Shown here: positions 24,686-37,530 of the stretch, in pieces
Layout: each line of letters starts with the position of its first letter
Numbering within the stretch: the stretch's first letter is position 1
Assembly (NCBI GenBank): GCA_903881505.1
Contig: CAIRTM010000126.1
Coordinates: 1-57,028, forward strand
Source: an uncultured delta proteobacterium
GTDB lineage: Bacteria > Desulfobacterota > WTBG01 > CAIYCZ01 > CAIRTM01
Reading direction: 5' to 3'
Length of the DNA stretch: 57,028 nucleotides
Program-made: the position numbers and the translations under genes
Notes under the pieces: generated by a model
Told to the model about the DNA's origin: nothing
The model's database searches: none
The model's input: the letters and a program-made list of their open reading frames with translations, nothing else

Positions 24686-25031
24686 ATATGGTATCAACAA
24701 ACCCGTAGGCATACGCATGTTTCTTTGTTAACACATGAAAGGTTTTTTGCAGGCAGAAACGTACAGGTTCAACGTGACTTCTGTACGCATACCCCCGGAC
24801 AGCACCCGGGGATACCATGCTCGTTTCATTTTCCCAGACACTACCGGCGCGGCCCTGTTGCCGATGGCGAGGAGAAGCCGCATGATGACCGGCGGACAGG
24901 CGTCCGGCAGCATGTTGCCGCTGTTGTAGCATGCCGTTCCCGCCCGGTTCAATACCGCCGGCAGCCTTACATGACACAACCCGTCCCCGGCTGCGGTGCG
25001 CCCAGCAGGGCTGATAGAAGGTAACGGTTAT
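24686..25031. other. Intergenic region before the glucan synthase gene
   Basis: This 346-base region should contain the promoter of the glucan synthase gene. No gene, riboswitch or terminator is recognised; short frames on both strands show no family resemblance. Confidence 0.35.
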
Positions 25032-27686
25032 ATGAGAAAAGCAGCAAACATCATTATCATCCTGGCGGTCGGCGTGATAGCCTTTAATTTCTGGTACCTG
25101 ATGAACAGGCCCGAGGTGGCCCCTTCGTGGCCGGGCCGCATCCAGGGATTTTCCTTCTCCCCCATGCGGGCATGGAACAACCCCATGAAGAAAAATTTCC
25201 CCTCGGAAGCGGAAATCGAAAGCGACCTGCAGCTGCTGGCGAAGAAAAGCAATGCGGTGCGGACCTATTCGGTTGAAGCCACCCTGGCCAGCATCCCGTC
25301 ACTGGCAAAAAAACACGGCCTGAACGTCGCCCTGGGTGCGTGGCTGAGCACCGACCCCGAGAAAAACGAGGCGGAAATCACCACGGCCATCCGGCTGGCC
25401 CGGGAAAACTACCGCAATGTCGTCCGGGTGTTCGTCGGCAGCGAGTCGCTGTACCGGCAGGACATCACTGTCAAGGAGCTTATCGAATATATCGACCGCG
25501 TCCAGGCCGAGCTGAAGGTGCCCGTCGGCACGGCTGAGCCCTGGCACATCTGGATGAAGTATCCCGAACTGGCCGAGCACGTCGATTTCATCGGCACCCA
25601 CATGCTTCCCTACTGGGAAGGCGTCAATATGGAAACGGCCCAGGACTACATAGTCGACAAGATGGAGCTGCTCAGAAAGACCTTTCCCGGCAAGCCGGTG
25701 ATCATCGGCGAAGTCGGCTGGCCGAGCAACGGCCGCACGCGCGGCGAGGCGGTCGCATCCGTTGCCAACCAGGCCCTGTTCCTGCGCAAATTCCTGACCC
25801 GGGCCGAGGCGCTCGACTACGTCTACTACGTCATGGAGGCGTTCGACCAGCCCTGGAAGCGCAAAAACGAAGGTGCGGTCGGCTGCTACTGGGGGGTCTA
25901 CGACCTGTACCGTCAGCCCAAATTCCCCTTCCGGGCGCCCATCGTGGGCATCCCCGAATGGCGCGTCCTTGCCGGCGTCTCGATCGTCATCGCCGTGATA
26001 ACGCTTTCCCTGCTGCTCATCGACAGCATCTCCCTGGGCCACTACGGCCGCGGCTTCCTTGCGGGCATCGCCTTCGTGGCGGCCAGCGGCGCGGTCTGGA
26101 TCGTCTATAACTATTCACAGCAGTACCTGACCCTCTCCATCATCATCGTCGGCTGCCTGATGCTGCTGGGGATCACCGGCGTGGCCATCGTGCTGATGAC
26201 GGAGGCCCATGAATGGGCCGAAGCCGTGTGGTCGATCCGCATGCGGCGCCCCCTCACCCCGGTAGAGGCCCCCGACGACGCGCTTCCCATGGTATCCGTC
26301 CATGTGCCGGCCTATAATGAACCGCCGGACATGATGATCGATACATTGAACGCCCTTGCCGCGCTGGACTACCCCCGCTTTGAGGTCATCGTGATGGACA
26401 ACAACACCCGCGACCCGGCCGTCTGGCGGCCCGTGGAAGAGCACTGCCGGAAGCTCGGGCCGGTGTTCCGCTTCTATCACGAGGACCAGCTCAAGGGCTT
26501 CAAGGCGGGCGCGCTGAACTACTGTCTGCGGCAGACAGCCCCCGGGGCGGAGGTCATTGCCGTTATCGACAGCGACTACATGGTCGAGCGCACGTGGCTC
26601 CGCGACCTGGTGCCCCAATTTCTGAACCGCTCCGTGGCCATTGTCCAGGCCCCCCAGGACTACCGGGACGACAGGGAAAACCTCTTTAAGGCCATGTGCT
26701 ACGCCGAGTACCGCGGATTTTTCTACATCGGCATGGTCACCCGCAATGAGCGCAATGCCATCATTCAGCACGGCACCATGACCATGGTAAGGAAATCCGT
26801 GCTGGAAGAGGTCGGCGGGTGGGCCGAGTGGTGCATTACCGAAGACGCCGAGCTGGGGCTGAGGATATTCGAGAAGGGCTACGAGGCCCTCTACACCTCC
26901 ACAAGTTACGGCCGCGGCGTCATGCCGGACGTGTTTACCGACTTCAAGAAGCAGCGCTACCGCTGGGCCTACGGTGCGGTCCAGATCATGCGGCACCACG
27001 CCGGCGAGCTGATACGAAAAGGCTCAAGCAGCCTGACCTATGGCCAGCGTTATCATTTCATAGCGGGCTGGCTTCCCTGGATTGCCGACAGCATCAACCT
27101 GATCTTCACCTTCGCTGCCCTGTTCTGGTCTATCGGGATGATTTGCCTGCCCAGAGAGTTCGACCCGCCCATGGTCATTCTTTCATCCGTGCCGCTGGCC
27201 TTCTTCGTATTCAAGGTCGCCAAGATGTTTTACCTGTACCGCAACCGGGTCGGCGCCACTCTTACCCAGACTCTTGCCTCGGCGCTGGCCGGGCTGTCCC
27301 TGTCCCACACAATCGCCAAGGCCATCATGTATGGCTTTGTAACCCGGAATCTGCCGTTTTTCAGGACCCCGAAAATGGTGGTGGGCAGGGTGTTCTGGAA
27401 CGCCCTGCAGTCTGCCCGCGAAGAGGGCCTGATGTTCCTGGCGCTCATGCTTGCCGCCGCCACCGTCATCAAGGTCCAGGGAACGGAAACGACCGACGTG
27501 CTCGTGTGGGCTGCGGTGCTGCTGATTCTGGCGATTCCGTATTGCGCCTCGGTCTGCATGTCCTGGATCAGCGCGTTTTCCCGGCTGTCGACCGGAAAGC
27601 TCATCAGCACCATCACCGCAGCTCCGGCGGTTCCTGTTCCTCCAGAGGTCCACGCCGGGCAGGACTGCGCTGAGCGTACAGGCTGA
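25032..27686 (+). CDS. GH17-GT2 beta-glucan synthase, NdvB-like
   Basis: An 884-residue membrane enzyme. After an N-terminal membrane anchor (about residues 5-22), residues ~35-320 form a GH17-type beta-1,3-glucanosyl domain with likely catalytic glutamates in GTAEPWH (about 167) and IIGEVGWPSNG (about 227). Membrane helices follow, then a processive GT2 domain with DNNTRD, DSDYM near 512, TEDAELG near 602 and QRYRW near 640, then more helices. Proteobacterial NdvB proteins of this build make cyclic or linear beta-1,3-glucans, with the GH17 part remodelling the chain outside. AAGG lies 8 bases before ATG 25032. It appears to be a single-gene unit. Confidence 0.88.
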   Translation: MRKAANIIIILAVGVIAFNFWYLMNRPEVAPSWPGRIQGFSFSPMRAWNNPMKKNFPSEAEIESDLQLLAKKSNAVRTYSVEATLASIPSLAKKHGLNVALGAWLSTDPEKNEAEITTAIRLARENYRNVVRVFVGSESLYRQDITVKELIEYIDRVQAELKVPVGTAEPWHIWMKYPELAEHVDFIGTHMLPYWEGVNMETAQDYIVDKMELLRKTFPGKPVIIGEVGWPSNGRTRGEAVASVANQALFLRKFLTRAEALDYVYYVMEAFDQPWKRKNEGAVGCYWGVYDLYRQPKFPFRAPIVGIPEWRVLAGVSIVIAVITLSLLLIDSISLGHYGRGFLAGIAFVAASGAVWIVYNYSQQYLTLSIIIVGCLMLLGITGVAIVLMTEAHEWAEAVWSIRMRRPLTPVEAPDDALPMVSVHVPAYNEPPDMMIDTLNALAALDYPRFEVIVMDNNTRDPAVWRPVEEHCRKLGPVFRFYHEDQLKGFKAGALNYCLRQTAPGAEVIAVIDSDYMVERTWLRDLVPQFLNRSVAIVQAPQDYRDDRENLFKAMCYAEYRGFFYIGMVTRNERNAIIQHGTMTMVRKSVLEEVGGWAEWCITEDAELGLRIFEKGYEALYTSTSYGRGVMPDVFTDFKKQRYRWAYGAVQIMRHHAGELIRKGSSSLTYGQRYHFIAGWLPWIADSINLIFTFAALFWSIGMICLPREFDPPMVILSSVPLAFFVFKVAKMFYLYRNRVGATLTQTLASALAGLSLSHTIAKAIMYGFVTRNLPFFRTPKMVVGRVFWNALQSAREEGLMFLALMLAAATVIKVQGTETTDVLVWAAVLLILAIPYCASVCMSWISAFSRLSTGKLISTITAAPAVPVPPEVHAGQDCAERTG

Positions 27687-27809
27687 AGCAGCGGTTCTGA
27701 CGCGGCAGGCAATGCCGGCCAGCATTCAGTGTGTCAGCGGTGTTATTGAAAGCTGCGTGCTGCTTGTCTGCCCCGGAAAGAAGTTAAAAGAGTGCTCGAG
27801 AAATAGTTC

Positions 27810-27837
27810 TTGTCAAGTACTGAAATAGGTTTAAAAT
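27810..27837 (+). promoter_or_regulatory. Candidate sigma-70 promoter of cphA
   Basis: TTGTCA (27810-27815) and TAAAAT (27832-27837) are separated by 16 bases and lie about 85 bases before the cphA start. Both hexamers match five of six consensus positions. Confidence 0.5.
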
Positions 27838-27922
27838 ATCACGATTTAACGGCTTGCAGCATTCCGTGTGCGTTTCGGGACGGAACTATTTCCTTAACCA
27901 ATCAGGCAAGAGAGTACTTAGT

Positions 27923-30550
27923 ATGAACATACGTTCGGTGCGTGCTCTGCGGGGGCCGAATATCTGGGCAAACTTCACCGTTTTAGAGGTGCTCGTCGAT
28001 CTTGAAGAATTTCAAGACCGGCACTCGGCCGATATACCCGGTTTTGCCCGGCGGGTTCAGGAGCGCCTTCCCTCAATGATAGAGCACCGCTGCGGCCTGG
28101 GCGTGCGCGGCGGCTTTTTCAAGCGCCTTGACGAGGGGACATATCTGGGCCATGTGCTGGAGCATGTGACCCTTGAGCTGCAGACCCTTGCCGGCACGGA
28201 TGTGGGCTACGGCAAAGCGCGAGAGACCGATGAGCCCGGCGTGTACAAGGTCGTTATCGAGTATGAAAATGAACGGCTCGCGCGCGCAAGCCTTGCCGCA
28301 GCCTGGGATTTCTGCCTGGCGGCCATCAGCGGGGATGAATTTGACACCGAGGGCTGTATTGCCGGGCTGAAGGATCTTGCCGGCGATGTGTGCCTCGGGC
28401 CCAGCACGCGCTCGATTGTGGATGCTGCGATTAAGCGCGGCATACCCGTGCGCCGTTTGAATGACGCAAGCCTTGTGCAGCTCGGCTACGGTGTTAAGCA
28501 GCGCCGCATCATGGCCGCAGAGACCGACCGCACCGGCGCGATCGCGGAGAGCATCGCCCAGGACAAAGAGCTTACAAAAACGATCCTGCGTTCGGCCGGT
28601 GTGCCCGTACCCGAAGGCAGGATCGTGCGCAGCCGCGATGAGGCCTGGCAGGAGGCGCAGGACATCGGGCTGCCGGTGACCGTAAAGCCAGCTGACGGCA
28701 ACCAGGGAAGGGGTGTTGCCGTCAACCTTGCCACGCAGGAGCAGGTGAAAAACGCCTATGATGCCGCCCGGCAGGAGAGCCGCGAGGTGATGGTCGAGGA
28801 AAACATCCAGGGCCGGGATTTTCGCTTCCTGGTTGTGGGCAGCCACCTTGTGGCTGCGGCCTGCAGGGTACCGGCCCATGTCGTCGGGGACGGCACGCAC
28901 ACGGTTGCCGAGCTGGTGGCCCGGGAAAACGCCGACCCCCGGCGGGGCGACAATCATGCCCTGAACCTGAGCAAAATACCCCTTGATGCGGTTTCGCTGG
29001 GCGTTTTGCGCGATCAGGGGCTGACGCCCGAGTCGGTTCCCCCCGAGGGCGCCTTTATTCTGATCCGCCGCAACGCCAATTTGAGCACCGGCGGCACCGC
29101 CATCGACGTGACCGACAAAGTACACCCCCTGAACGCATCTTTTGCCGTCGGGGCCGCAAAATGCATCGGGCTTGATATCGCCGGCATCGACATTGTCGCG
29201 CAGGACGTTAGCGTTCCGCTTGAGGAACAGGGCGGCAAGCTGATTGAGGTCAATGCAGCGCCGGGACTGCGCATGCATCTGGCGCCTTCCGAGGGGCAGG
29301 CCCAGCCCGTGGGGCAGGCGATCGTCAACATGCTGTTTCCCGAAGGGGAGAACGGCCGCATACCCGTGGTGGCCGTTACCGGCGTTAACGGCAAGACCAC
29401 TACGACGCGCTTCATAGCCCACATGCTCAAAAGCGCCGGTTACCAGACCGGCATGGTCTGCAGCGACGGCATCTATGTCGACGGCCGGCGTATAGAGAAG
29501 GGCGACTGCAGCGGCCCGCAGAGCGCCCGCAGCCTGCTGCTGAACCCGTTCGTTGATGCGGCCGTGCTTGAAACAGCCCGCGGCGGCATTATCCGCGAAG
29601 GTTTGGGATTCGACCTGTGTGATGTCGCGGTGGTCACCAACATCGAGGGCGGCGACCACCTTGATCTGCACGACATTAATACCCTTGACAAGCTCGCCGT
29701 GGTCAAGCGCACAATCGTGGAAGCGGTCGCCAAAAGCGGCACGGCCGTGCTTAACGCCCAGGACCCCCTTGTTGCCGAGATGGCCGCGCACTGCCCGGGA
29801 GCCGTGTGTTTCTTCAGCCTGGCCGACGGCAACCCGATTATCAGGGAGCACTGTGCAAAAGGCGGAAGGGCCGTGTTTTTACGAGACCAGACGATCGTAC
29901 TTGCCGACGGGGCCCAGGAAATCAATTTCACCGTGCTGGAGACGATACCCCTGACGCATCGCGGCACTATCCGCTTCCAGGCGGAAAACACCCTTGCCTC
30001 CATCGGGGCGGCCTGGGCGCTGGGCCTGCCGTTTGAGAAAATTCTTACGGCGACCGAAACCTTCGTTCCCAACTTCATCAATCTGCCCGGCAGATTCAAT
30101 GTCGTGAGCCACGACGGCGCGACCATCATTGTTGACTACGGGCATAATCCCTCGTCGCTGGAGGCGATCATAACGGCGCTGGACAATTACGACCACAAGC
30201 ACCGCGTGGCCATCTACTCGACAGCGGGCGACCGCCGCGACTGTGACATCATCCTGCAGGGCAGGCTGCTGGGCGAGGCCTTTGATTCGGTCATCCTCTA
30301 CGAGGATCACTATCTGCGCGGCAGGCAGAAAGGCGAAATCATCAGTCTGTTCAGGCAGGGCCTTGCCGATGCCGCCCGCGCACGGGATGTATTGGAAATT
30401 TACGGCTCGCTCAATGCCATCGACGTTGCGATGGGCAGCCTGAGTGCCGGAAGCCTGCTGCTCATCCAGGCCGACAAGGTTGACGAAACAGTGGAATACA
30501 TGCGCAAGTATTTCCCCTCCGACATACCGCTGCCTCCCGCGACGCTGTAG
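27923..30550 (+). CDS. cphA: Cyanophycin synthetase
   Basis: An 875-residue enzyme that polymerises aspartate and arginine into cyanophycin using ATP. The N-terminus (IRSVRALRGPNIWANF) is characteristic of CphA1. An ATP-grasp module occupies roughly 215-480, and a Mur-ligase-like module starts near 485 with the P-loop VTGVNGKTTTTR, followed by the DHLDLHDI segment and the MurE-like GRFNVV/DYGHNPSS region. Both ATP sites appear intact. I start at ATG 27923 because the conserved domain begins right there. The downstream ABC transporter and DUF1854 protein appear to form its operon. No cyanophycinase (CphB) or isoaspartyl peptidase is in the window. Confidence 0.95.
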   Translation: MNIRSVRALRGPNIWANFTVLEVLVDLEEFQDRHSADIPGFARRVQERLPSMIEHRCGLGVRGGFFKRLDEGTYLGHVLEHVTLELQTLAGTDVGYGKARETDEPGVYKVVIEYENERLARASLAAAWDFCLAAISGDEFDTEGCIAGLKDLAGDVCLGPSTRSIVDAAIKRGIPVRRLNDASLVQLGYGVKQRRIMAAETDRTGAIAESIAQDKELTKTILRSAGVPVPEGRIVRSRDEAWQEAQDIGLPVTVKPADGNQGRGVAVNLATQEQVKNAYDAARQESREVMVEENIQGRDFRFLVVGSHLVAAACRVPAHVVGDGTHTVAELVARENADPRRGDNHALNLSKIPLDAVSLGVLRDQGLTPESVPPEGAFILIRRNANLSTGGTAIDVTDKVHPLNASFAVGAAKCIGLDIAGIDIVAQDVSVPLEEQGGKLIEVNAAPGLRMHLAPSEGQAQPVGQAIVNMLFPEGENGRIPVVAVTGVNGKTTTTRFIAHMLKSAGYQTGMVCSDGIYVDGRRIEKGDCSGPQSARSLLLNPFVDAAVLETARGGIIREGLGFDLCDVAVVTNIEGGDHLDLHDINTLDKLAVVKRTIVEAVAKSGTAVLNAQDPLVAEMAAHCPGAVCFFSLADGNPIIREHCAKGGRAVFLRDQTIVLADGAQEINFTVLETIPLTHRGTIRFQAENTLASIGAAWALGLPFEKILTATETFVPNFINLPGRFNVVSHDGATIIVDYGHNPSSLEAIITALDNYDHKHRVAIYSTAGDRRDCDIILQGRLLGEAFDSVILYEDHYLRGRQKGEIISLFRQGLADAARARDVLEIYGSLNAIDVAMGSLSAGSLLLIQADKVDETVEYMRKYFPSDIPLPPATL

Positions 30551-30590
30551 TCCTGATGTCGCCGCATGCGCCAAACGGAAGCGCTCTGCT

Positions 30591-32843
30591 ATGAATGGCA
30601 ATCACACACTGAACAGCCGCGCCTCTGCGCGCGAACCCAGCGGGCAGGTCTGCTTCGAACATGACCTGGACGCACGGCTCTGTTTTCGCAGGGGGGCGCT
30701 TATCCTGAACGGCACGCTCCTGACACATGCTGACCCGGAAAACGGCAGCGCGGCGGATGCGGATGCCTCCTGGGATCTGAGTGCCGACATGACCGCCACC
30801 GCCAGCGCCTACACCGGCATCGGCGAAATAGAGCTGCGTGACAGCCGGAGCCTGCTGGGCCGCTGGCATTACACTATCGGCCTGCATCCTGAGGCCTGCG
30901 CCTTCGTGAAGACGATCAACCAGCGCGCCTTGCGGCATGGAGGCCCCTCCGGAAGCGAATCAGAGCCGGCGCAGGAGAGCGCTCCCGAAACGTCCCTTGA
31001 TACCCCGGATGAAATCACATCGAAAACCACCATGAAGTCGCTCGGGCGTCTTGCAGGCTTTTGCCGCCCCTGGACACGCTTTTTCCTGCTGAGCTTCGTG
31101 CTGAGCGCCGCCTGCACGGGCGCGGGGATGATTCCCCCGTACATTACCATGCCCCTGATCGACAAGGTGCTCATTCCGTTCCAGAACGGCCATCCCGTTG
31201 ACGAGGGCCGGGTTGTGCTGTACCTGTCGGCGCTGTGCGGCGCGGCCTTCCTGGTATGGCTTCTGGGATGGGCACGCACCTACGTGCTTGCCTGGGTGAG
31301 CGAGCGGGTGAGCGCCGGGCTGCGCAATGCCCTCTACACGCACATGCACCGGCTCTCGCTTGACTACTTCAGCGAAAAGCGCACCGGCGACCTGATCGCC
31401 CGCGTGAGCACCGACTCGGAGCGCATCTGTTTTTTCCTGTCGGTATACGTGCTTGATCTGGCCGCAGACATTCTCATGATCGTCATGACGGCAGCCATCC
31501 TTTTCTACATCAATCCCCTGCTCGCCGCCGTTACCCTGCTGCCTTTTCCATTCATTTTCTGGCTCACACACCGGGTGCGAGAAACGCTGCGCCGTGGGTT
31601 TTCAAAGGGCAGCCGCGCATGGGCCGACATGACCAGCGTGCTGGCCGATGCGATACCCGGGGTGCGGGTGGTAAAGGCGTTCGCGCAGGAGAGGCGAGAA
31701 ACAGAGCGCTTCAGCGAAGCCAACCGGCTCGTGCTGCGGGCCAATGACCGCATCAACCGGGTCTGGTCGTTCTTCGGCCCCCTGGTCACGCTGCTGACCG
31801 ATCTGGGCGTGCTGATCATCTGGGCGTTCGCCGTGTGGATGATATTCAGGGGCCGTATAACGGTGGGCGTGCTTACCGCGTTTGTGGCCTATATCAGCAA
31901 ATTTTACGGCCGCCTTGAGGCCATGATACGCATGGTGTCGGCCTTTCAGCGAACGGCCGCGAGCGTCAAGCGCATATTCGATGTCATCGACATTGAGCCC
32001 CGCATCATCGAGGCGGCCGAACCCGTTGTGCCCGGCAGGATTACCGGCACAATCGAATTCCGCAATGTGGGCTTTTCCTACGGTACGCGCGAAGTTCTTA
32101 AAGACGTCAGCCTCACCATCGCGCCCGGCGAGATGATCGGCTTTGTCGGGCCCAGCGGTTCGGGCAAGACAACCCTGGTGAATTTGGTATGCCGCTTCTA
32201 CGACGTGTGCGCCGGCGCCGTCATGATCGACGGCATCGACGTGCGCGAGTTGAGCCTTGCCGCCTACCGCAAGAACATCGGCATCGTGCTGCAGGAGCCG
32301 TTCCTGTTCTACGGGACCATCGCGGAAAACATCGCCTACGGCAGGCCCGAAGCCTCGCGGGAGGAAATAATCGATGCCGCCCGCGCCGCCTGCGCGCATG
32401 ATTTCATCATACGGCTGCCGGACGGCTACGACACGCTCGTGGGCGAGCGGGGGCAGCTGCTCTCAGGCGGCGAGCGCCAGCGCATCAGCATCGCCCGCGC
32501 CATTCTCATCAATCCCGCAATCCTTATTCTTGACGAGGCGACCTCCTCGGTTGACGTGGAGACTGAAAAGGAGATCCAGCAGGCCGTTGAGAATCTTGTC
32601 CAGGGCCGCACCACCCTTGCCGTTGCCCACCGGCTCAGCACGCTCAAGCGCGCCGATCGCATCGTGGTCCTTGAGGAGGGCTCGATAACAGGGGTCGGCA
32701 GGCATGCAGAGCTGCTTTCAACCAGCGCAACCTATGCGCGGTTTCACCAGACCAATGCCGAGATGTATCTCGCGGCCGGACTTCCGGCCGGCGAAAGCCG
32801 GAGCGAAATCGCCGGCGACACAGAGAGGAAATATGCACAGTAG
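30591..32843 (+). CDS. ABC half-transporter (fused membrane and ATPase domains) associated with cyanophycin genes
   Basis: A 750-residue exporter-type ABC protein. Residues 1 to about 150 form an extra N-terminal domain not found in ordinary exporters. A six-helix membrane domain follows (~165-460), then the ATPase with Walker A GPSGSGKTTL (~519), signature LLSGGERQR (~623) and Walker B ILILDEATS (~645). It starts 40 bases after the cphA stop and overlaps the next gene. ABC proteins of this type next to cphA and a DUF1854 gene form a recurring neighbourhood in bacteria. The cargo is unknown; a role in cyanophycin metabolism is by association only. The start ATG 30591 has GGAAG upstream. Confidence 0.87.
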   Translation: MNGNHTLNSRASAREPSGQVCFEHDLDARLCFRRGALILNGTLLTHADPENGSAADADASWDLSADMTATASAYTGIGEIELRDSRSLLGRWHYTIGLHPEACAFVKTINQRALRHGGPSGSESEPAQESAPETSLDTPDEITSKTTMKSLGRLAGFCRPWTRFFLLSFVLSAACTGAGMIPPYITMPLIDKVLIPFQNGHPVDEGRVVLYLSALCGAAFLVWLLGWARTYVLAWVSERVSAGLRNALYTHMHRLSLDYFSEKRTGDLIARVSTDSERICFFLSVYVLDLAADILMIVMTAAILFYINPLLAAVTLLPFPFIFWLTHRVRETLRRGFSKGSRAWADMTSVLADAIPGVRVVKAFAQERRETERFSEANRLVLRANDRINRVWSFFGPLVTLLTDLGVLIIWAFAVWMIFRGRITVGVLTAFVAYISKFYGRLEAMIRMVSAFQRTAASVKRIFDVIDIEPRIIEAAEPVVPGRITGTIEFRNVGFSYGTREVLKDVSLTIAPGEMIGFVGPSGSGKTTLVNLVCRFYDVCAGAVMIDGIDVRELSLAAYRKNIGIVLQEPFLFYGTIAENIAYGRPEASREEIIDAARAACAHDFIIRLPDGYDTLVGERGQLLSGGERQRISIARAILINPAILILDEATSSVDVETEKEIQQAVENLVQGRTTLAVAHRLSTLKRADRIVVLEEGSITGVGRHAELLSTSATYARFHQTNAEMYLAAGLPAGESRSEIAGDTERKYAQ

Positions 32844-33309
32844 CCCTAAAACCATTACCGATGGTTTCCGCGACGGGCAGGGCCGTCTGATTGTTACCGA
32901 CGATCAGGGAATGCAATACCAGGACGTACTGCCGGCGCGCATGTTCCCGATTACGGATCCGGACGGCTTTCTGTCAGTCTGCGACCGGCAGGGCAGGGAG
33001 CTGTTCTGCATCCGGAGCATGGCGGACGTGCCCGCGCAGCTGCGCCCCATACTGCAGGAGGAGCTCAACCGCACCATGTTCACGCCCGTGATCAGGCGCA
33101 TCCTGCGCTCGGTGCCTTTCGGCGACCTCGTGCGCCTTTTTATCACCACCGACCGCGGGGATACCGACATCACCGTCGATACCGAGGAAATCTACCGCCT
33201 TACCGGAGACAGGATTCTGCTGAAAGACATACACGGCATCAGGTTTCTGATCCCCGACTGGCACGCCCTGAACAGCCAGAGCCGACGCATTCTGGATATA
33301 TACCTGTAG
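32833..33309 (+). CDS. DUF1854 protein of the cyanophycin-ABC operon
   Basis: A 158-residue soluble protein that looks like the DUF1854 family (DGFRDGQGRLIVTDDQG, YQDVLPARMFPITDP, FTPVIRRI, DIHGIRFLIPD). The C-terminal half, with TTDRGDTDITVDTEEIYRL, resembles the extra N-terminal region of the ABC protein, which may mean they are related or act together. It overlaps the ABC gene by 11 bases and has AGAGG 5-8 bases upstream of ATG 32833. Function is not established. Confidence 0.85.
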   Translation: MHSSPKTITDGFRDGQGRLIVTDDQGMQYQDVLPARMFPITDPDGFLSVCDRQGRELFCIRSMADVPAQLRPILQEELNRTMFTPVIRRILRSVPFGDLVRLFITTDRGDTDITVDTEEIYRLTGDRILLKDIHGIRFLIPDWHALNSQSRRILDIYL

Positions 33310-33339
33310 GGCTCCGGCTGCGGGCCCGGCGTGTGCCTG

Positions 33340-34500
33340 TCAGCAATGCCCTCCGGGGAGCTCGTGCCCCGCGCCGGCTGCCGCCTTGCGCTCCAGCTTA
33401 TCCAGCACCATGAGACAGCTCCTGATATACCAGCCCGGGCAATCGCTCCCGCGTCTGCCGTTGCGCCCGACGAGCCGTTCGAGCGTGAAGCGTGCGTGGC
33501 TGAAGCCTGCTTCAAGGTCATATGCGCACGCGTTGAAATCGCGCTCAAAAAGCTCGAAGCGCAGCTTCATGACCAGGTACTCCGCGGTGAGCACGCCCGC
33601 CGAAGGGTTACGCAGCAGCGCGGCAAGCCGTTCCTCGTGCCGGGATGCACGCCGCAGCCTCTGCGCCGGGCGTCCGCGGCGGTTCCCGGCGGCAGCGGCA
33701 AAATGCGCCGCCATGCGCGCATGATAGTCTGCACGGCAGCCAAGATAGGTCCGTGCAAACGCCAGCACATCGCCTGCGGGCGCAGTGGAGCGCAGGGCCG
33801 CCAGGTAGCGGAAAAGCGTGCGGAACTCGAAATTGCAGACGCAGGAGCGCAGCGGAATAGCGGGGTTTGAGCAGATATTGTAATCGCACAGGTAGGCATC
33901 ATCCTGTTCGGCCAGCGGGCTGGCCTGGCCGGCAAACTCAAAATCAATCAGTCCCGCGCGGTCCTGTGAGAGCACGATGTTGCTTGCCTGCAGGTCGTAA
34001 TGGATAAAGCCTGAACGGTCCATCAGGAAAAATGTATCGAAAAGCTGTCGCAGCAGTGTTTTTTTAAGCGGGAGATTACACGGGTGGGGGTGCTCCCCCG
34101 GAACGAACGTCAGCAGGAGATAGTATGTGCCGCGTGAGCGAAAGCGGGCGAGCAGCACAGGACAGCCGGGAATCTCAAGGCCTGCAAGCCGCATGAGGTT
34201 ATCGGCCTCATGTTTGAATGTATGGTCAGGATTGGTGCGGCCTGCCGCCAGCCCGGCCTGCTTGAGAACCGCGCATGCGCTGCCGTGCATGCCGGCGCTG
34301 ATTTTGTAACAGATAGAATTGCGGCTGGCGCCGCAGATTGCGTGCCTGCCGGCCATGGCCCCGTCCGCAATGCGCTGCAGTTCGCAGTCCGTGAAAGCAT
34401 GCACGCCTTCCTCAAACACGGCGATCTCGTCGGCGTGACCGGCTCGCAGCATGTCCATGCGCAGCGGTGCGCACAGGTTTTCGGTGGCGAGGTCTTTCAT
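33340..34500 (-). CDS. APH/choline-kinase-like small-molecule kinase
   Basis: A 386-residue protein of the aminoglycoside-phosphotransferase/choline-kinase fold. The catalytic HYDLQASN loop (HxDxxxxN) and IDFEFAG metal-binding motif lie near residues 165-190. Kinase candidates of this shape in envelope loci (LicA-like) phosphorylate choline or related alcohols. It overlaps the nucleotidyltransferase gene by four bases, so the pair is probably kinase plus nucleotide activation of the same small molecule. The C-terminal third is Arg/Ala rich with no recognised domain. The substrate is unknown. Confidence 0.75.
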   Translation of the reverse strand: MKDLATENLCAPLRMDMLRAGHADEIAVFEEGVHAFTDCELQRIADGAMAGRHAICGASRNSICYKISAGMHGSACAVLKQAGLAAGRTNPDHTFKHEADNLMRLAGLEIPGCPVLLARFRSRGTYYLLLTFVPGEHPHPCNLPLKKTLLRQLFDTFFLMDRSGFIHYDLQASNIVLSQDRAGLIDFEFAGQASPLAEQDDAYLCDYNICSNPAIPLRSCVCNFEFRTLFRYLAALRSTAPAGDVLAFARTYLGCRADYHARMAAHFAAAAGNRRGRPAQRLRRASRHEERLAALLRNPSAGVLTAEYLVMKLRFELFERDFNACAYDLEAGFSHARFTLERLVGRNGRRGSDCPGWYIRSCLMVLDKLERKAAAGAGHELPGGHC

Positions 34501-35201
34501 GGCTGTCCCGCCAGTCGGCGCGCGCGGTCGATATCCTGCAGGTAGTCAATCTCGGCCCAGCCGTACCCCGCGAAATCAAATGCCCGTATATCGGCGCCAT
34601 GATCGTTGAGCATCGCGCGGATGAACTGGAAATAGTAGGTGCGCTTTTCATTAAAGCCGCGCTGCATCCGTTTATCAAGCAGTCCGGCGAACAGGCGGGC
34701 ATGTTCGCGCTTGAAACGGATCACCCCGGTGTAGGCGCCGCTGTAACCTGCAAACTTGACCCCAAAGCGTTCAATCCGGCCGTCGGCCACCCGGACATTC
34801 AGCTCTTTGGGGTCAAGGATCGAGCTGTCATATCCCATGTAGGAGGCATGCCCGCAGGCCAGCATATCCCGGATCAATATGTCGGAAAAAACAATATCGC
34901 CGTGAATGACCGTTACGGCATCGGTAAAGCCCTCCCGCGCGAACCATAACGAGGCATTGATGCCTGTAATGTCAAAAAAGGGGTTCACGATAATCTGGCA
35001 GCCCCGGGCATGCCCTGCGACCGCCTCATTTTTAAATCCGGCGACGATATATATGGCGGCATTGTTATCAAAAGTCCTGATCTGCCGGATCAGCCGCTCA
35101 AGCAGCGTCTCGGCGCCTATACGGATAAGGCATTTCGGCAGAGGGTTTTCGCGCGCGCCCATGCGCGTGCCCATGCCGGCTGCGGGGATCACATAGTTCA
35201 T
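34497..35201 (-). CDS. LicC-like nucleotidyltransferase
   Basis: A 234-residue sugar-1-phosphate/phosphocholine-type nucleotidyltransferase. The N-terminal IPAAGMGTRMGARENPLPKCL has the Gly-rich NTP-binding loop and catalytic Lys, and HGDIVFSD carries a metal-binding Asp. Related LicC enzymes make CDP-choline; related RmlA-type enzymes make NDP-sugars. Size and partners (kinase downstream, phosphatase-superfamily enzyme upstream) favour activation of a phosphorylated alcohol or sugar, possibly CDP-linked (inference). It overlaps both neighbours by four bases. Confidence 0.78.
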   Translation of the reverse strand: MNYVIPAAGMGTRMGARENPLPKCLIRIGAETLLERLIRQIRTFDNNAAIYIVAGFKNEAVAGHARGCQIIVNPFFDITGINASLWFAREGFTDAVTVIHGDIVFSDILIRDMLACGHASYMGYDSSILDPKELNVRVADGRIERFGVKFAGYSGAYTGVIRFKREHARLFAGLLDKRMQRGFNEKRTYYFQFIRAMLNDHGADIRAFDFAGYGWAEIDYLQDIDRARRLAGQP

Positions 35202-36538
35202 CGTTCCAGCACCCGTTTTCCTATCCTGCGCGCAGCCCGCAGCGCCCGTGCAGTCAGGGACCTTTTCGGCACAGCGCAGGCAAAGGAAAAATCCTGAGAG
35301 CCGCTCCTGTTAAACGCCGCAAGGCAGGAAAGCGGAAAGCGGTTGGGCGCTTCAGCGTAGGAGTTCTTTTTTTCAACAAAGGACGCCAGGCCGCTGCGCA
35401 ACGCAATGAATGCATCGTTCATATGCCGGGCATGGACGGGAAAGCGCCGGAATATTTCGTTGAAATGCGGCACGCCGAAGCCGTCAGGCGGGATAAAGCG
35501 CAGAGCGCCTCCCTCGCCGGGCGCGAAAAAATTCAGCAGGTTGCAGCTGTTGGACGGATCAAGGCGGTGGTCATAGAATTCCAGCCCCTGCCTGCCGGCC
35601 AGCAGCAGGTAGTCTTCGTTCATGGCAGCGTAGGCCTTGCTGATCGAGGAACTCGGTGATCCCGCCTGATTGGCAAGTAGGTTCTGGGAAAACACCATGC
35701 GGTTTTTTTGGATCAGCAGGTTGATGCCCGCGTCAGGGAAGGGCTCGTCATCCCTGCAGTCAAGCAGGCCCAGAACCGTGTTCCTGATGTCAACGGTGCC
35801 GGCAGGCCCGGCGTACACATACGGCTGTGTGCCGGGAAGGTATATGCTCATCGGCACTGCCGTAACCGTGGCATACGGTTCAATGGCGTGCAGAAAGCCG
35901 CCCTTCAGGCCGTGGGTCCACAAATCATCGCCATGATCGCCCATCAGAACCACAACCGTGTTGTCCAGCAGGCCTTTTGTCTCAAGAAGGCTGACGATTT
36001 CGCCGACCAGCCAATCGGCCTGGCGGTATTTGCTTTCGAACCGGTCCGCGAGCGTAGCAGCTGCATCGGATTCCGCGTCATGCTGCTCCACATGGCTCAC
36101 CAGGTTCCAGACGTATACGGCAAAGGGCCCTGCGCCGGTAATTGAATCAAGGCGGGCGAGAAGGTCAGCGGGCGCATCGGTTCCATACACCGGTTCGAGA
36201 TTTTCAGGCCAGATGCAGATCCGGGTTCCTTCTGCGGGATGGTTCATGTTCAGGCATGCAACGCTGCTGTGATATCCGCAATCGCTCAGCATTGAGAAAA
36301 TATTGCGGCACAGGCCCGCAGGCATAACCCTGTCAAGCGCTGTGGCGTGATCCAGTTCGAAGCTGTTGCCGTGCCACACGGATGCAATCGCCATGAGCGA
36401 TGAAGTTGCCGAGGCAAAGAAATTGCGAAAGACCACGGAGCGGGCACGCAACGCCCGCACGCACGGAAACGCGTCGGGAAAAAGGCGCAGCGTCTGGTTC
36501 GAGATACTCTCAAGATGAAGAAAGAGGATGTTTTTCAT
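35198..36538 (-). CDS. Alkaline-phosphatase-superfamily enzyme (sulfatase/phosphotransferase-like), apparently cytoplasmic
   Basis: A 446-residue protein of the sulfatase / LtaS-EptA superfamily. The first metal-binding element is LHLESIS, with Glu as in LtaS/EptA enzymes rather than the Asp of sulfatases. The expected nucleophile region is SATSSLMAIA, so Thr or Ser rather than formylglycine-forming Cys. VLMGDHGDDLW holds metal-binding Asp/His. No signal peptide or membrane segment is visible, unusual for a phosphoalcohol transferase acting outside the cell. It could transfer or remove a phosphoalcohol group in the cytoplasm. It overlaps the nucleotidyltransferase by four bases. The start at 36538 has only a weak ribosome binding site. 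Confidence 0.75.
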   Translation of the reverse strand: MKNILFLHLESISNQTLRLFPDAFPCVRALRARSVVFRNFFASATSSLMAIASVWHGNSFELDHATALDRVMPAGLCRNIFSMLSDCGYHSSVACLNMNHPAEGTRICIWPENLEPVYGTDAPADLLARLDSITGAGPFAVYVWNLVSHVEQHDAESDAAATLADRFESKYRQADWLVGEIVSLLETKGLLDNTVVVLMGDHGDDLWTHGLKGGFLHAIEPYATVTAVPMSIYLPGTQPYVYAGPAGTVDIRNTVLGLLDCRDDEPFPDAGINLLIQKNRMVFSQNLLANQAGSPSSSISKAYAAMNEDYLLLAGRQGLEFYDHRLDPSNSCNLLNFFAPGEGGALRFIPPDGFGVPHFNEIFRRFPVHARHMNDAFIALRSGLASFVEKKNSYAEAPNRFPLSCLAAFNRSGSQDFSFACAVPKRSLTARALRAARRIGKRVLER

Positions 36539-36646
36539 ACTTGGCGTGTTTCTGCATTGACCGGCCGCCGGCGCTCTTGCAGCGCACCGCTTCCGTGATA
36601 TGCCGCAATTGCCGCGCACGGTGTCGTGCGCCCGAGCACCGGAAGG

Positions 36647-37114
36647 CTAGCGTGCAAGCTCAGCGACCTGCTCGAAAGTCAGCTCTTTGCGGCCGAGAAA
36701 ATAGCGGCGGCCCTCAACAGACACGGCATGCACCCGGGCGAGGGGCGCAAGCGCTCCCTGAATCTGATCGACCACCCGGGCTTTCATCAGGTAGCCGTCA
36801 ACCACGGAACGGTCGTTTTCAGTTGCGTGGTTCTGAATGCGCCTGACAAGGTGTGCGCGCCATTCGGCATCGAAATAGCGCCCATATTTCGAGAATGAAT
36901 AGGCATCCAAACCTTCAATCATACTGTCGTAATGCGGGCCCACGTAGTCAGGCAGATTTTCAAAATACATTGCAGGGCACTGTGTTTTGATGAAATCGCA
37001 GTACACTGCGTCAACGCGCAGGCCCGTGCACACTGCCTCCCGCTCCAGCCTTGTCATCAGGTGGGTCTTGCCCTGGCGCGGAAGACCGGTCAGCAAAATC
37101 AAGCGTTTCTTCAT
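36647..37114 (-). CDS. P-loop kinase-like protein
   Basis: A 155-residue P-loop NTPase. Walker A is GLPRQGKTHL at residues ~10-19; no second clear motif other than DRSVVDGY (possible Walker B) is visible. Size and shape resemble small-molecule kinases such as adenylylsulfate or cytidylate kinase-like enzymes; the substrate is not known. It overlaps the upstream small gene by four bases and lies 108 bases before the sulfatase-like gene, probably in the same operon. Confidence 0.7.
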   Translation of the reverse strand: MKKRLILLTGLPRQGKTHLMTRLEREAVCTGLRVDAVYCDFIKTQCPAMYFENLPDYVGPHYDSMIEGLDAYSFSKYGRYFDAEWRAHLVRRIQNHATENDRSVVDGYLMKARVVDQIQGALAPLARVHAVSVEGRRYFLGRKELTFEQVAELAR

Positions 37115-37530
37115 GACCCGCCTTCCTTGTGCGCGCAGTGTGCATTGCCGGTCGCCTGTACCTGTGGCGTCGCGGGGCTTCCGTGAGACCCGGCCCGGGC
37201 ATCGCAGCCGTTCACATGGCTGATAACGCCGCTGCCGCAGGCGTCGGCCCCGTTTGCAATTTCTGCCCTGCGGTAATCGGCCGCGGCTGAAATGATGCTG
37301 TGCTGCTGCAGCAGCTCAGGCCCCCTGATACCGGTGCTGTTTTTGCCGCAGCCGGTATCGTTGAAAACAACATCGGCCGCAGCAGCATCCATCGCGTACC
37401 TTGCTGAAGACGCGCCGCCGTGAGAGCCGCTGATGATAATATCGCCGTGATTGTCGCAGGTGGCGCAGGATACGCTGTCCATAATAACCTTTGTGACCGG
37501 GCCGTCGCTGAACATAATGTGCTGCTGCAT
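37111..37530 (-). CDS. Unknown conserved-looking protein of the kinase cassette
   Basis: A 139-residue protein. Conserved-looking elements are DIIISGSHGGASSARYA, VVFNDTGCGKNSTGI and GSGVISHVNGCDA, which I associate with a small family of unknown function in which a His/Gly-rich SHGG motif and an ND.G.GK motif recur. I cannot name it. The C-terminal 30 residues look unstructured. It starts 54 bases after the neighbouring membrane-protein gene, overlaps the P-loop gene by four bases and has GC-rich codons like its neighbours. Confidence 0.6.
   Translation of the reverse strand: MQQHIMFSDGPVTKVIMDSVSCATCDNHGDIIISGSHGGASSARYAMDAAAADVVFNDTGCGKNSTGIRGPELLQQHSIISAAADYRRAEIANGADACGSGVISHVNGCDARAGSHGSPATPQVQATGNAHCAHKEGGS

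Follow-up and report, generated by a model that had tools for sequence, protein, structure and literature searches.

Four orphan genes in an insert of a delta proteobacterial contig: a possible CDP-linked phospho-compound cassette with an anchor-free phosphatase-superfamily protein

Whether a compact run of minus-strand genes for a kinase, a nucleotidyltransferase, a phosphatase-superfamily enzyme, a P-loop protein and a protein of no familiar family forms one pathway, and which compound such a pathway would handle, is the question raised by a 57,028-nucleotide stretch of DNA from an uncultured delta proteobacterium (the window, contig C126 of a 3.16 Mb genome in 149 contigs). An earlier note on this DNA had described the five genes, here named G1 to G5 and read in the order G5-G4-G3-G2-G1, as a single cassette. 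The five open reading frames, their common strand (Table 1) and the four-base overlaps at the G5/G4, G3/G2 and G2/G1 joints were confirmed, and all five frames rate as coding on a codon measure trained on the window. The observation was mostly right, but its frame was wrong, as the locus consists of four orphan genes in an insert and one truncated resident gene. For the four genes we propose, with a probability of roughly 0.4, that G1 and G2 would make a phospho-compound linked to cytidine diphosphate (CDP), which G3 would transfer or hydrolyse.

We compared 17 window proteins with the G5-carrying contigs of six relatives. Genome G001, of the same genus, carries a family 2 glycosyltransferase (GT2) gene, G5, a gene for a transmembrane protein and those that follow in an order collinear with that of the window, at 59–90% protein identity. 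As G5 there directly follows the GT2 gene and the whole run of genes between CphA and G4, both included, is absent, the five genes do not form one cassette; CphA, the ABC transporter, the DUF1854 protein, G1, G2, G3 and G4 have no match on the corresponding G001 contig. In a blastn comparison of the G001 flank with the window, similarity ends at 27619 and restarts at 37190. Both genes flanking the junctions are altered, the GT2 gene and G5 each at the C-terminus, and no direct or inverted repeats of at least 10 bases were found at the junctions. The two halves of the insert are convergent, with a plus-strand cyanophycin module facing the minus-strand genes G4-G3-G2-G1 across a 30-base gap. A single insertion event is the simplest reading, two steps being also possible, and we tentatively regard G4-G3-G2-G1 as a four-gene operon that entered the lineage in this ~9.6-kb segment together with the cyanophycin module. 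Taken alone, the overlaps are weak evidence for an operon, because an ATG followed by A always contains TGA one base on, so that every upstream frame has a chance of 1 in 3 of overlapping in this way; the G5/G4 joint, in addition, coincides with an insertion junction. The G4/G3 joint does not overlap; its gap is 27 or 108 bases depending on the start codon of G3, whose open frame reaches 36619 (35198–36619), the likely ATG start giving the 446-residue form of Table 1. Codon usage of G1 to G4 lies 0.36–1.27 standard deviations below the gene mean of the window, which fits the host, and a signal of foreign origin was sought in it and not seen.

The fifth gene, which had been counted as a cassette member, turned out to be a conserved backbone gene cut by the insertion. 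Homologues occur in 6 others of 17 genomes of the class (L031–L036), and five relatives share a conserved C-terminal tail, in place of which the window protein carries ~25 unrelated residues. Since the flanking genes change at the junction and five relatives keep the tail, the intact form is most likely the older one. Four outgroup proteins agree at 64 positions, of which the window protein departs from 20 and that of G001 from 5, and the ratio of nonsynonymous to synonymous substitution rates between the two genomes is 0.31 for G5 and 0.10–0.25 for five neighbours. From these comparisons G5 evolves faster than its relatives and looks relaxed, and this decay argues against a chimeric assembly. 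The G5 family (SHGG, ND.G.GK), for which no Pfam or NCBIfam match was found, is conserved and reaches from the class of the window's genome as far as haloarchaea and Rhodococcus; some relatives are plasmid-borne, in haloarchaea, Rhodococcus and Aminobacter among other hosts.

G1 exceeds the cut-off of the Pfam family APH (35 bits, cut-off 23.2) and keeps the kinase motifs Lys80, Glu98, HYDLQASN (167–174) and DFE (186–188). Against Choline_kinase (PF01633) it scores 16.4 bits, under the cut-off of 29, so that of the LicA-like kinase proposed beside a LicC-like enzyme the adjacency stands, while the likeness to LicA holds only at the level of the APH fold. G2 matches NTP_transf_3 (48.4 bits, cut-off 27) and contains the motifs AAGMGTRMG, HGD (Asp102) and WAEID (Asp219), both metal aspartates being among the invariant columns of 13 aligned nucleotidyltransferases (G2 and 12 others); the fold of G2 is LicC-like. 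Its identity to each of the 12 is 23–30%, with a match to 1jyk at E 0.0032, and in the tree it forms a long branch with neither a supported partner nor a substrate-specific grouping; owing to this low identity and isolated branch, the substrate of G2 is not readable from its sequence. The row L088fus of the tree is to be disregarded, as the protein had been cut at the wrong end (its nucleotidyltransferase is residues 430–550), and the 13-row alignment was too variable for use as a scan query. G2 is the sole LicC-like protein of its genome at E<=1e-8, and at this threshold relatives with 23–31% identity occur in 30 others of 297 phylum genomes. Three genomes that share the family of the window's genome encode large LicC-like proteins (L080:7269-9962, L106:6198-9173, L107:8268-11081), that of L080 being fused to a CDP-glycerol glycerophosphotransferase-like domain according to Pfam, and those of L106 and L107 having 991 and 937 residues.

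G3 belongs to the Pfam family Sulfatase (57.6 bits, cut-off 25). In an alignment with 22 relatives, the columns Glu10 (Asp or Glu in others), Ser47 (mostly Thr), His149, Asp201-His202 and His217 were recovered. By eye, the nucleophile region reads SATSSLMAI and lacks the maturation motif CxPxR/SxPxR; since CxPxR is absent at the nucleophile column, G3 is not a formylglycine sulfatase, and a pattern scan of the 22 relatives found the formylglycine motif in one (L019). No membrane segment was predicted by hydropathy at a threshold of 1.6, and at a laxer threshold of 1.2 the long form gave one internal stretch only, from residue 208. The claim of LtaS-type residues without a membrane segment is thereby upheld, and missed N-terminal segments, sought also in the upstream extension, were not found, which leaves a standard membrane LtaS unsupported. 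G4 shows only a P-loop, with sub-threshold Pfam matches to AAA_18 and AAA_33; it does not match APS_kinase (PF01583), for which the kinase of genome G033 served as a positive example with 121.8 bits.

Orthologues of G1, G3 and G4 were not found in phylum genomes, nor any relative of G2 above ~31% identity. For G1, full-length relatives were absent from 395 phylum genomes, with partial matches in 8 other genomes at E 6e-5 or weaker, and plasmids and viral contigs gave no match; as single proteins, neither G1 nor G2 found a relative in the named-genome scans. G2 matched 57 plasmid records, all below 60% identity, the neighbourhoods of five of which were inspected and held no G1-G4-like set by annotation, and one distant phage record. 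Relatives of G3 at E<=1e-9 occur in 14 others of the 395 genomes (27–37% identity, over parts of the protein); its plasmid and phage-record searches gave three and two distant matches, and viral contigs none. G4 has relatives in 0 others of 297 phylum genomes, no convincing match in eight other genomes of the family, and no match on plasmids, phage records or viral contigs.

The surroundings of G2 relatives were covered by 35 neighbourhoods (3 to 20 kb each) around 36 other G2-related places. Three of them contain a gene of the G3 superfamily and two a small P-loop kinase, both APS-kinase-like as judged by sequence look. In L087 (G139), a DUF3413-Sulfatase protein, a Kdo/WaaP-family kinase, a glycerophosphotransferase-like protein and a LicC-like enzyme lie within 5 kb; L077 (G033) combines a Thr-type G3 relative without transmembrane segments, an APS kinase, a LicC-like enzyme, a GATase and a phosphoenolpyruvate (PEP)-utilising enzyme; L078 (G005) contains a 725-residue Sulfatase-domain protein. 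The G139 and G033 clusters are looser parallels to the G1-G4 cassette. Phosphoramidate-like clusters with a PEP-utilising enzyme of ~1000 residues, a GATase-type protein and a LicC-like enzyme were seen at L077:4117-10931, at L124:1916-9127 (G003, same family) and at L099:2379-6768 on a Vibrio alfacsensis plasmid, L077 and L124 also having an APS-kinase-like gene; L124 was judged by sequence look only, the other two by Pfam or annotation. Beside the set in L077, a thiamine pyrophosphate enzyme, a class-V aminotransferase and a LicC-like enzyme adjoin (L077:13510-16521), which we take to be a phosphonate-type set of phosphonopyruvate decarboxylase and transaminase.

A kinase paired with a LicC-like enzyme suggests a phospho-compound linked to CDP. 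G1 would phosphorylate a small alcohol or similar compound X, G2 would join phospho-X to the cytidine monophosphate (CMP) of cytidine triphosphate (CTP) to give CDP-X, and G3, as a cytoplasmic relative of LtaS and EptA, would attack the X phosphate through Ser47 and hand phospho-X on to either an acceptor or water. As a guess, G4 may phosphorylate a substrate or an intermediate. Domain matches, kept motifs, the Glu/Thr-type alignment columns and host-like codon usage are consistent with this proposal. In the window's genome, LicD (PF04991) had 0 matches (controls positive in 2 of 14) and CDP-glycerol glycerophosphotransferase none (controls positive in 3 of 14); as both are missing and G2 is the only LicC-like protein, G3 is the best candidate among the known phosphoalcohol-transfer families. 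Several points weigh against the proposal. None of the 35 neighbourhoods holds a G1-like or G4-like gene, and the set was found nowhere else; the G3 relatives align with it only in part, at 22–44% identity; single-sequence structure models of G3 and G4 are poor, with a mean predicted local distance difference test (pLDDT) score of 35.0 and 48.9; no acceptor-making genes adjoin the cassette; CDP-alcohol phosphatidyltransferase-type enzymes, for which the genome was not searched, could also use CDP-X; and G4 would, beyond the guess above, lack a step. A narrower version, plausible but unproven and in our estimate unlikely, is a hybrid mechanism in which the LicA/LicC-like pair would supply a soluble CDP-donor and the anchor-free alkaline-phosphatase-superfamily enzyme, and not LicD, would transfer the phospho-group; what the cyanophycin module of the same insert makes could serve as the acceptor.

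Two other accounts, each somewhat improbable, deserve to be weighed. In one, G3 would act as a soluble phosphodiesterase or nucleotide pyrophosphatase, with the cassette serving to salvage or degrade a phospho-compound without attaching it to an acceptor. The lack of a membrane segment would suit this, as would a match of G3 to Phosphodiest (PF01663) that stays below threshold (19.6 bits against 23) and an operon in which acceptor or polymer genes are missing, but a kinase with a LicC-like enzyme would be a biosynthetic pairing, and salvage would need no CDP activation. In the other, the genes are the stranded fragment of a decoration locus for surface polysaccharide or lipopolysaccharide in the donor, with an incomplete pathway. 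Only ~75 bases of the insert precede G4, and the segment may therefore hold part of a donor pathway only; the ATG of G4 overlaps a foreign stop, no promoter-like site was found on the minus strand from 37190 to G4, and related enzymes lie in lipopolysaccharide- or capsule-like loci. What speaks for a working set instead is that the four frames are open, with coding-like codons and kept motifs, and that it is the truncated neighbour G5 which decays.

Far less probable is a variant of the methyl phosphoramidate (MeOPN) system of Campylobacter, with G2 as the counterpart of Cj1416 and G4 as that of Cj1415. Cj1415-Cj1418 do make a CDP-activated phosphoramidate, and a G3 relative without transmembrane segments adjoins such a cluster in G033, but G4 does not match APS_kinase as the G033 kinase does, the cassette is without GATase and PEP-synthase-like genes, and G2 stands apart from the phosphoramidate pair in the tree. 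With glutamine kinase and amidohydrolase missing from the cassette, this reading is largely refuted. We give equally little credit to a defence or regulatory kinase island without phospho-alcohol chemistry, for which PADLOC gives a weak match of 22.8 bits between G1 and PD-T4-6 kinases; it covers the kinase core only, and G2, G3 and G4 have no PADLOC match.

Table 1. Features of the insert, the gene set and the flanking genes in the window.
Feature	Position	Strand	Description	Basis or remark
Insert	27620-37189	n/a	~9.57 kb	absent from same-genus G001, ~293 bases between matching flanks there
GT2	24996-27686	plus	cellulose-synthase-like, flanking backbone gene	last ~20 codons differ from G001 at left junction
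CphA	27920-30550	plus	cyanophycin synthetase	NCBIfam TIGR02068 1096 bits, cut-off 850
ABC transporter	30594-32843	plus	cyanophycin metabolism-associated	NCBIfam NF052233 1032 bits, cut-off 880
DUF1854 protein	32704-33309	plus	cyanophycin-associated	Pfam DUF1854 118.8 bits, cut-off 26.8
G1	33340-34500	minus	APH/protein-kinase-like small-molecule kinase, 386 aa	Pfam APH above cut-off, motif positions
G2	34497-35201	minus	divergent LicC-like nucleotidyltransferase, 234 aa	Pfam NTP_transf_3, alignment, tree
G3	35198-36538	minus	soluble alkaline-phosphatase-superfamily protein, 446 aa	Pfam Sulfatase, no membrane segment, alignment
G4	36647-37114	minus	small orphan protein of 155 aa with the P-loop GLPRQGKT	sub-threshold Pfam only
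G5	37111-37530	minus	SHGG-family backbone gene, C-terminus lost at junction	homologues, tail comparison

The module CphA-ABC-DUF1854 (27920–33309), which makes up the other half of the insert, is uncommon across the phylum, with DUF1854 present in 1 of 297 sampled phylum genomes, that of the window itself, and unmatched in a plasmid search. The start codon of the ABC transporter was chosen by us. The DUF1854 frame is open from 32704 with a possible start at 32830, the shortened 159-residue form reaching 126 bits against NCBIfam NF052234 (below the cut-off of 150), and its end lies 30 bases from that of the convergent G1. In the same-family genome G002, a CphA of 83% identity is followed by the beginning of the ABC gene, where the contig ends.

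If the proposed route is true, it would be a second use of CDP-activated phospho-compounds, with a soluble phosphatase-superfamily member in place of LicD or of the membrane enzymes EptA and LtaS, and the cyanophycin and phospho-activation modules in one insert would be a testable pair. A stranded fragment would be of little consequence. Under either reading, it is useful to have corrected a five-gene cassette to four genes and a truncated resident gene.

Among known systems, the cyanophycin-associated ABC module (CphA, NF052233, DUF1854) is complete in the insert, but it is convergent with G1-G4 and so a separate operon, without a known link to phospho-activation. The Lic-1 system comprises the kinase LicA, the permease LicB, the cytidylyltransferase LicC and the transferase LicD. 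The cassette resembles it in a kinase adjoining a LicC-like enzyme and in the presumed CDP-X intermediate, but the genome is without LicD, the operon without a LicB-like gene, Choline_kinase stays under its cut-off and the proposed transferase belongs to another superfamily. In Lic-1, LicA and LicC lead to CDP-choline, from which LicD transfers phosphocholine (PMC10434233). With LtaS, EptA, PptA and PbgA (YejM), G3 shares, by alignment only, the columns of the metal site and the nucleophile (Glu, Ser for Thr, His, Asp-His and His); it differs in being without membrane segments and would need a soluble donor, whereas the known membrane phosphotransferases are thought to use phospholipid donors (PMC10434233). 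From glutamine, ATP and CTP, Cj1415-Cj1418 build CDP-phosphoramidate 3'-phosphate (PMC11800397), and the cassette likewise has a cytidylyltransferase-like protein and a small P-loop protein, but the latter is not of the APS-kinase type, and neither glutamine kinase (PPDK_N/PEP-utilizers) nor GATase domains occur in G1-G5, the rest of the genome not having been searched for them. That the combination matches no named pathway, as the earlier note held, stands; the cassette lacks at least one tested feature of each of the Lic-1, phosphoramidate and LtaS/EptA systems, and no paper describing it was found in the literature searched. If true, the hybrid route would unite the CDP-donor logic of Lic-1 with that of PptA-type enzymes, for which a lipid donor is assumed, two systems for whose coexistence a survey of 26 species reports no evidence (PMC10434233).

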